Origin: Clostridiales bacterium
Lineage (GTDB): Bacteria; Bacillota; Clostridia; Caldicoprobacterales; DTU083
Reading direction: 5' to 3'
DNA: 38,623 nucleotides
Assembly (NCBI GenBank): GCA_012837325.1
Contig: DURK01000148.1
Location: 1 to 38,623, forward strand
In this document: positions 34,301 to 37,316 of the stretch, in pieces
Numbering within the stretch: position 1 is the first letter of the stretch
How the letters are laid out: every line of letters starts with the position of its first letter
The notes under the pieces: model-generated
Seen by the model: the letters and a program-made list of their open reading frames with translations, nothing else
The model's database searches: none
Told to the model about the DNA's origin: nothing
Made by a program: the position numbers and the translations under genes

Positions 34301-35323
34301 ATGGATAAGAAAAAAGCGTTGGAAATTGCTCTTACCCAAATCGAAAAGCAGTTTGGAAAAGGGTCTATCATGAAACTGGGCGAGTCCACACATTTGAATG
34401 TAAGCGCAATTTCCACCGGTGCCCTCGAACTGGATATTGCACTGGGTGTAGGCGGTGTTCCCAGAGGCCGTGTCACCGAAATTTTTGGGCCGGAATCGTC
34501 GGGTAAAACCACAGTTGCCCTTCACATTATAGCAGAAGCGCAAAAAAACGGAGGGACTGCAGCATTTATTGATGCCGAACACGCCTTGGATTCCATCTAT
34601 GCCTCCAAGCTGGGTGTCGATATAGAAAATCTGCTGGTATCACAGCCCGATACCGGTGAACAAGCTCTTGAAATCGTCGAAGCATTGGTACGCAGCAGCG
34701 CTATCGATGTGATCGTTATCGATTCAGTAGCTGCTTTGGTACCCAGAGCTGAAATTGAAGGCGAAATGGGGGATTCCCATGTCGGGTTGCAGGCCAGGCT
34801 CATGTCCCAGGCTCTCCGTAAGCTCTCCGGAGTCATTAATAAATCCAATACCGCAGCAATTTTCATTAATCAATTAAGAGAGAAGGTTGGCGTTTTATTT
34901 GGCAATCCAGAAACCACTCCCGGCGGTCGTGCCCTTAAATTCTATTCTTCTGTCCGATTGGATGTCAGAAGGATTGAGACACTCAAGCAGGGAACGGAAA
35001 TGGTTGGCAACCGTACCCGGGTCAAGGTGGTAAAAAACAAGGTAGCTCCACCTTTCCGTCAAGCTGAATTTGATATCATATACGGTGAGGGTATTTCAAA
35101 AGAAGGTTCCATCCTTGATATGGGAGTCGCTCAAGATATTGTTGAAAAGAGCGGTGCCTGGTATTCCTATGAAGGTACCAGAATCGGTCAGGGCCGCGAA
35201 AATGCTCGACAATTCCTGAAAGACAACCCAGAGATGGCTGCAGAAATAGACGCTCGCGTACGTGAGAAGATACTGGCTGTTCATGTTCTAGAAGCAGAAT
35301 CGGACAATTCAGTTGAGGAATAA
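34301..35323 (+). CDS. recA: Recombinase RecA
   Basis: Forms ATP-dependent filaments on single-stranded DNA, catalyses strand exchange and triggers LexA self-cleavage. The Walker A motif GPESSGKTT is at residues 63-71; [12 protein letters not shown]-region equivalents and [22 protein letters not shown] (L2 loop and signature, given in part) follow. ATG at 34301 follows AGGGGGT and gives 340 residues, with a short acidic C-tail (ESDNSVEE). The frame is open to 34268 but without a ribosome binding site. It is controlled by its own promoter and SOS box. Confidence 0.98.
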
Positions 35324-35346
35324 ACCCATTTGGGTTTATTCTTTTT
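35319..35346 (+). terminator. Intrinsic terminator of recA
   Basis: AATAAACCC (35319-35327) pairs perfectly with GGGTTTATT (35332-35340), loop ATTT, followed by CTTTTT. It includes the recA stop codon. The intron-like relic begins at the next base. Confidence 0.88.
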
Positions 35347-35566
35347 GTTCGGCCGCCATGGGCGGGCTCTAACGGGTGAAAGTCCCGGGTGCGCCCAGGC
35401 AACGAGGAAGCACATAGCTGAACAGCAAGGGTGTCCATCGTGAGGTGGAATCTGAAGGCAGCTGTAGGCAAACCCTTGATCCGACGAACAGGAATCACAT
35501 AACGGAGCGCACGGCGGTGTGAGAGGCCGGAAATTTCTCATTTAGAGAAATTTTCTCCTAATCGAT
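35347..35566 (+). mobile_element. Miniature group II intron-like relic, no reverse transcriptase
   Basis: The 5' part resembles domain I of bacterial group II introns: TCTAACGGGTGAAAGTCCCG near 35368-35387, then GCAAGGGTGTCC, GAGGTGGAATCTGAAGG and GACGAACAGGAATCACAT. Intron-like pairings are intact: CAAGGGT (35426-35432) with ACCCTTG (35472-35478), and AGCTG (35416-35420) with CAGCT (35459-35463). The 3' part, CGCACGGCGGTGTGAGAGG followed by an AAATTTCTC/GAGAAATTT hairpin and CTCCTAATCGAT, resembles the 3' strand of domain V and domain VI. The rest of domain I, domains II-IV with the maturase gene, and the 5' half of domain V are missing, so self-splicing is unlikely. The 5' end GTTCG differs from the usual GTGCG. 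Insertion right behind a terminator is typical of group IIC introns. Boundaries are estimates. Confidence 0.7.
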
Positions 35567-35596
35567 TTACGATCGTGCAAGTTATGTGCAATTTAC

Positions 35597-35625
35597 TTGA
35601 CACACCTATTAATTAGTTATAAAAT
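35597..35625 (+). promoter_or_regulatory. Strong SigmaA promoter of rny
   Basis: A perfect TTGACA (35597-35602) and TAAAAT (35620-35625) are 17 bp apart. The transcription start should be near 35632, giving a leader of about 143 bases. The promoter lies just outside the intron relic. Confidence 0.8.
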
Positions 35626-35703
35626 AATCATAAATCACAAGCTTATGGTTTGAGCTTTGTTTGATTTTTTGGTGTAAACAACAATTTGGAATTACACTGG
35701 TTT

Positions 35704-35733
35704 ACCGAGTGGTTCCCTTTACTCGGTTTTATT
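35704..35733 (+). terminator. Terminator-like hairpin in the rny leader
   Basis: ACCGAGT (35704-35710) pairs with ACTCGGT (35721-35727), loop of ten bases, followed by TTTATT. It stands between the promoter and the rny ribosome binding site, so it would act as an attenuator. CACT about ten bases upstream could pair with AGTG (35708-35711) and compete with the stem. Confidence 0.55.
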
Positions 35734-35774
35734 ATGCAAATGAAATTCGAAGTAAGATTGAGGAGGTGTACCCC

Positions 35775-37316
35775 ATTCCACTACCATTACAATTACTAAT
35801 TGTCCTGGTAGTAGCCATTGTATGTCTCGTTGCTGGATACTATTATCGCAAGCGGATCGCTGAAGGAAAGATATCCAGTGCAGAAGATGCCGCTAAAAGA
35901 ATTGTAGAAGAGGCCCAAAAGCAAGCCGAAGCAACGAAACGTGAAGCCTTGTTGGAGGCAAAGGAAGAAATCCATAAACTGCGAAGTGAAGTAGATCGGG
36001 AAAGCCGTGAAAGGCGAAATGAAGCACAAAGAACAGAAAGAAGGCTTCAACAAAAGGAAGAAAACCTTGACAAAAAAATGGATTCCCTGGAAAGCCGCGA
36101 AGATTTGTTGAACCGAAGGCAAAAAGAAATTCAAAAGCTGCAGGAGCAGGTTGAAATGCTTCATAAACAGCAGCTTACCGAATTGGAACGTATTTCAGGC
36201 TTAACAAGGGATCAGGCCAAAGAGCATTTACTGGAGAATATTGAAAGGGATATCAGTCACGAAATCGCGGTTAAATATCGTGAAATTGAGTCGAGAGCCA
36301 AAGAAGAGGCAGACAAAAATGCCCGCAGCATCATTTCATTGGCTATCCAAAAATCAGCTGCCGATCATGTAGCCGAATCCACAGTATCCGTAGTTTCTCT
36401 GCCTAATGATGAGATGAAAGGACGAATCATAGGCCGTGAAGGAAGAAATATTCGCACTTTGGAAACCGCTACCGGTATTGATTTAATTATTGATGATACC
36501 CCTGAAGCAGTAATTCTATCCGGTTTTGACCCAATTAGAAGAGAAGTAGCCCGTATTGCTCTTGAGAAATTAATTGTTGACGGCAGGATTCATCCAGCCC
36601 GTATAGAAGAAATGGTGGAAAAGGCCAAAAAAGAAGTTGAAACTCAAATAAGGGAAGAAGGAGAGCAGGCTGTATTTGATATTGGAATACACAATGTTCA
36701 TCCTGAATTGGTTAGACTTCTGGGCAGGTTGAAGTATCGTACCAGCTATGGTCAAAATGTACTGAAACATTCCATAGAAGTTGCGAACCTTGCCGGAATT
36801 ATGGCATCCGAGTTGGGAGCCGATGTTAAACTTGCAAAACGAGCAGGTTTGCTGCACGATATAGGAAAAGCAGTTGACCATGAAGTAGAAGGTTCTCATA
36901 CGCAAATTGGTGCGGATTTGGCAAAGAAATATCGCGAACACTATCAGGTAATTAATGCGATAGCTGCCCACCACGGTGACATTGAAACCACGACCGTGGA
37001 AGCTGTGTTGGTGCAGGCTGCAGATGCGGTTTCCGCTGCCAGGCCTGGAGCCAGAAGAGAAACATTGGAAGCATACATCAAGAGATTGGAAAAATTGGAA
37101 GACATCGCAAATTCCTTCGCAGGAGTAGAAAAATCCTTTGCTATACAAGCAGGAAGAGAAATCCGAATTATCGTTAAACCTGATAAGGTAAATGATGATC
37201 AGGCTGTATTAATGGCTAGAGATATTGTCAAGCAGGTTGAAAAAGAGCTTGAGTATCCAGGACAAATCAAGATTAATGTTATTCGCGAAACGCGAGCTGT
37301 TGATTACGCAAAATAA
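35775..37316 (+). CDS. rny: Ribonuclease Y
   Basis: Membrane-anchored endoribonuclease that starts mRNA decay in Firmicutes. Order: N-terminal transmembrane helix (about residues 5-22), long charged coiled coil (about 25-200), KH domain ([13 protein letters not shown]), HD domain ([12 protein letters not shown]) and conserved tail ending [12 protein letters not shown]. No ATG is available at the expected start. AGGAGGTG (35761-35768) is correctly spaced for ATT at 35775, giving [13 protein letters not shown]; the first 23 residues then match the Bacillus protein in length, and the total is 513. GTG at 35766 overlaps the Shine-Dalgarno, and TTG at 35661 has none. Confidence 0.9.

Follow-up and report, generated by a model that had tools for sequence, protein, structure and literature searches.

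What the short non-coding stretch between recA and rny of this Clostridiales bacterium is, and whether it still does anything, was asked because the initial annotation had described it as an intron-like relic of about 220 bp directly behind the recA terminator. Its coordinates in the window, i.e., the whole stretch of 38,623 nucleotides that was analyzed, were borne out: the first base of the element (35347) directly follows the T-run of the terminator, and its last base is 35567, with an ambiguity of 1 nt. The nearest full-length relative found was an ltrA-bearing intron on plasmid NZ_CP135163.1 of Roseburia sp. 831b, which served for alignment. The locus comprises the following features:

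34301..35323, + strand: recA coding sequence (open reading frame; RecA 77-89% identical in same-order relatives), the host gene upstream of, and outside, the intron
35319..35346, + strand: intrinsic terminator of recA, AATAAACCCA-TT-TGGGTTTATT-CTTTTT, overlapping the recA stop codon; insertion target
35347-35567, + strand: gutted group IIC intron of 221 nt, in the interval from the recA terminator to the rny promoter
35347..35501, + strand: intron 5' end of about 155 nt, proximal domain I (RF02001; alignment to the Roseburia intron)
35501..35502, + strand: deletion junction CACATA/ACGG (alignment with the full-length ltrA-bearing intron; multiple alignment of 5' regions)
35502..35526, + strand: remnant of domain V (loop side and 3' strand) and linker to domain VI, aligned to Roseburia AACGGTACGCACGGTGGTGTGAGAGG
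35527..35567, + strand: domain VI and intron 3' terminus CTCCTAATCGATT (alignment; terminus of the same type as the domain V-VI ends on contigs C185 and C186)
35597..35625, + strand: rny promoter TTGACA-17-TAAAAT, just outside the intron and conserved in relatives without the insert

The identity of the element could be read directly. Rfam model RF02001 (group-II-D1D4-3) matched at 35434-35538 with 55.6 bits (cut-off of 32; E of 6e-10 for the 2 kb searched and 1.2e-8 for the whole window), the sole Rfam match in the window. Since this score is well over the cut-off, the feature lies far above chance, and the covariance-model search that had been proposed as a check found similarity to group II introns, which are self-splicing mobile elements. 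A ceN47 snoRNA match in recA, with 21.6 bits against a cut-off of 35, was discarded as chance. Assignment to group IIC followed several lines. First, the sequence and structure of domain I scored above the RF02001 cut-off, confirming the 5' portion of domain I that had been annotated. Second, the terminator (35319-35346) abuts 35347, so that the site is directly 3' of an intrinsic hairpin, as had been claimed; almost all of the related copies inspected are directly preceded by a terminator hairpin, and insertion behind such hairpins is documented for class C introns (PMC8919778). Third, the element starts with GTTCG and ends with ...CGATT; the GTTCG terminus also occurs in L053, and the Roseburia intron has GTTTG. 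The 5' part shared 81% identity with the Roseburia plasmid intron and 79% with a contig from a faecal phage collection.

The extent of the deletion was likewise visible in the alignment. Of a group IIC intron, about 155 nt from the 5' end and about 66 nt from the 3' end remain, joined directly, and the right side of the break falls in the loop region of domain V. The element shares with the Roseburia intron the 5' terminus, proximal domain I, domain VI, the 3' terminus and the site behind a terminator hairpin, but lacks an interior of about 1.6-1.7 kb. Gone with this interior are the distal part of domain I, which bears the exon-binding sites, all of domains II-IV, the reverse transcriptase, and of domain V the 5' strand. 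The annotated 3' strand of domain V and domain VI were recovered in this alignment, the latter with a perfect stem of 9 bp (35531-35553), as described. Also as described, no open reading frame for a reverse transcriptase or maturase occurs in or near the element, and domain V is incomplete, with its 5' strand deleted and the site unmatched by RF00029. EBS1 of the E.r. group IIC structure corresponds to nt 184-188 and EBS3 to nt 231, and the maturase is anchored via domain IVa (PMC10190682). The EBS1-like loop GTAAA of the Roseburia intron complements the TTTAC that precedes the insertion point of this intron, and is located past the break. EBS1, EBS3 and the domain IV maturase anchor are all absent from the recA element, as judged by alignment and not by exact numbering, because position numbers differ slightly between introns. 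Given these missing parts, splicing, reverse splicing and maturase binding are almost certainly not to be expected of the remnant. Its minimal anatomy, a remnant of domain I plus domain VI, recalls the group III introns of Euglena, which measure about 90-120 nt and sometimes carry domain I and VI motifs only (PMC4424553); those are working introns of chloroplast genes, whereas the recA element gives no sign of splicing at the sequence level.

Intact long-range pairings in domain I had been put forward for the element, and this claim fell. CAAGGGT is nearly invariant among relatives, but its partner strand is not: in the CAAGGGT/ACCCTTG columns, all seven pairs form in the recA element only, compared with three to six of seven in 18 aligned rows of relatives (which include the duplicate-locus pairs L013/L059, L023/L056 and L041/L052), with many A-C and G-G mismatches. 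By eye, the 3' strand of the relatives can instead pair with a strand of domain Id, e.g., ATCTCT/AGAGAT in Roseburia, and it is this domain Id strand that is deleted in the recA element. CAAGGGT/ACCCTTG was therefore rejected as a native pairing and is regarded as fortuitous. AGCTG/CAGCT is not the conserved register either, an ACAGC/GCTGT helix with the same 3' strand being better kept in relatives. Because one domain I pairing is fortuitous and the other in a non-native register, the argument from perfect pairing to recent origin or selection is weak.

The insertion site was examined in relatives. Same-family genomes without the intron carry a hairpin and T-run at the same place behind recA. 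When the flanks of the element were joined, they aligned to the corresponding recA-rny interval in a genome of the same family (G010, L077; RecA 89% identical) with no indel at the join, where CTTTTT is followed by CATAGTTGTGCAGG here and by TACGATCGTGCAAG in L077. Nothing similar to the element was detected behind recA in any of 25 relatives with a located recA stop. Since the same junction exists without the insert, the element is a lineage-specific insertion; a conserved 3' element of recA, which the initial annotation had named as the competing outcome, was rejected.

Downstream of the insertion, the leader of rny (RNase Y; 35626-35778) showed the same motifs in eight same-family genomes (L077, L079-L084 and L093), in the order GTGTAA...TTACAC, a hairpin of the CCGAGT/ACTCGG type, a T-rich stretch (hairpin and T-rich stretch at 35704-35727 in the window) and the Shine-Dalgarno sequence GAGGAGGTGTACC. 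TTACAC has two potential partners, the GTGTAA upstream of it and the GTGTA within the Shine-Dalgarno sequence, and these alternative pairings suggest a switch in the leader. Folds computed from single sequences gave no common structure, and no Rfam family matched the leader. Passages on rny of B. subtilis describe it as autoregulated and do not contain the arrangement seen here (PMC10303841). By sequence, the rny start appears to be ATT (35775-35777), which follows GGAGG by 8 nt, so that 20 residues precede GYYYRK. No ATG, GTG or TTG codon has normal spacing, and the sole alternative, GTG at 35766-35768, is inside the Shine-Dalgarno sequence. The same position holds ATT in L077, L079, L080, L081, L083 and L093, ATA in L082, L100 and L101, and TTG in L084. 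Such a start resembles the AUU start of infC.

The search for copies and a parent in the same genome, which had been recommended, was answered in part. A second gutted copy on contig C203, 93% identical over the first 126 nt and also behind a terminator, carries a different internal deletion and ends with CTACTCGATT; the genome thus holds two gutted copies, of 221 nt (recA) and 174 nt. A full-length parent was not found: another group IIC intron is cut off within its 5' part by the end of contig C162, and contigs C185 and C186 stop within 3' parts carrying domains V-VI, all partial, located at contig ends and without a close match to the element, and searches for RVT_1, GIIM and LtrA gave no match in the draft genome. 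Because draft contigs break at these introns, a complete intron may be unassembled. Near the end of C186 (L005, G000), a group IIC 3' end abuts the tRNA T-arm-like sequence ACTTGGGTTCGACTCCCAAGT, with no obvious complete tRNA.

Beyond this genome, the deletion junction had no match in 84,980 genomes or viral contigs by exact pattern matching, which would miss diverged copies. A looser pattern (domain I motif followed by a 3' terminus within 41-101 nt) had none in viral contigs and 11 genomic matches, ten of which were real mini derivatives of 178-212 nt; the eleventh (L073) was a chance match in coding sequence. The ten occur in Clostridia, Bacteroidota, Listeria and Photobacterium, one per genome and with differing junctions, which argues for independent deletions and not for an amplified family; an amplified mini-intron family was rejected on these single copies and the unmatched junction. 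Group IIC LtrA matches are carried by eight of the ten hosts. Four minis of 184-207 nt (L067, L069, L072 and L075) retain all or nearly all of domain V plus domain VI and are better candidates for residual activity than the recA element. In a census of the class, RF02001 matched in 68 of 293 genomes. Fragmented copies proved common: among 12 weak or short census matches read by eye, seven retain the 5' end and show no 3' end, and L121 has an internal deletion closely resembling that of the recA element. Another of the 12 (L038/L125, G016:C4) is a group IIC intron that measures about 0.5 kb and has no ORF; it lies behind a terminator and adjoins rRNA genes, and its domain V-VI match, with 33 bits, is below the cut-off.

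With high confidence, the locus is read as a full intron that inserted behind the recA terminator, lost its interior and persists as a dead, neutral remnant. The covariance model, the alignments to full-length introns, the empty site in the relative and the second copy in the genome all uphold the group IIC relic of the initial annotation. The starting point would be a full-length intron of about 1.9 kb, equipped with a reverse transcriptase, that inserted by the usual group IIC route, recognizing the terminator hairpin and T-run. The whole interior would then have been lost in one deletion, or copying would have been incomplete during insertion, and the joined ends (155 nt from the 5' side, 66 nt from the 3' side) would remain as presumably neutral filler between terminator and rny promoter. 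Fragmented group II introns are well known from bacteria (PMC4424553, PMC4496777, PMC2882425), and the recA element agrees with this record, as a trans-mobilized family does not. TeI3n of Thermosynechococcus elongatus is likewise a copy that a single large deletion, from DId to DIVa, has inactivated (PMC2882425); the recA element differs in its group, IIC, and in the additional loss of part of domain V. Against the relic reading stand the lack of an assembled parent of the same subfamily and the exact preservation of both ends in both copies of the genome, since in published cases of decay it is typically the 3' end that is lost (PMC4496777). The latter objection is weak because it concerns only two copies and the search started from such an element.

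Deletion at or after insertion would fit the same product. Within the relic reading, a copy stillborn through the reverse transcriptase jumping across folded intron RNA during insertion is possible but rather doubtful: 12 mini elements keep their ends and lose their interiors with a different junction each, several at or just before domain V, but this pattern is partly ascertainment because the search required both ends and a short interior, and DNA deletion after insertion yields the same outcome. Both-ended minis were found once per genome elsewhere and twice in the genome of the recA element; that such minis of 174-221 nt are made repeatedly at insertion by jumping, or that some are still moved in trans, is unlikely.

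Much less probable is a non-autonomous mini-intron that is spliced and moved in trans, with a full intron at another locus of the genome supplying the maturase; the alternative offered by the initial annotation, a non-autonomous RNA moved or stabilized in trans, was not supported. Both termini are intact, other intron copies lie at contig ends of the same genome, similar minis occur in bacteria that mostly carry group IIC LtrA matches, and ORF-less introns of T. elongatus are mobilized in trans (PMC2882425). The TeI3 family likewise lacks an internal reverse transcriptase, but it keeps its ribozyme and is multicopy with one shared deletion (PMC2882425), and the recA element does neither: several copies sharing one deletion were sought, and its junction, counted directly, is single in the genome and had no exact-pattern match in the 84,980 other genomes or the viral contigs. 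The ten minis are single per genome, with differing junctions. With EBS1, EBS3, domain IV and the 5' strand of domain V gone, the parts for target pairing, maturase anchoring and catalysis are missing, which makes mobilization in trans unlikely. Least probable of all is a host-adopted RNA under selection, e.g., a second terminator or a regulatory RNA of recA or rny: a perfect domain VI hairpin does stand between two housekeeping genes, but no T-run follows it, the insert is absent at the same junction in every relative checked, and relatives that lack the insert conserve the rny promoter and leader, both of which are located entirely downstream of it.

The recA element is thus a real but ordinary molecular fossil. 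Its correct annotation explains a ribozyme-family match in non-coding DNA behind recA and indicates no activity, and the small set of independently gutted, both-ended group IIC introns provides material on how such deletions arise.
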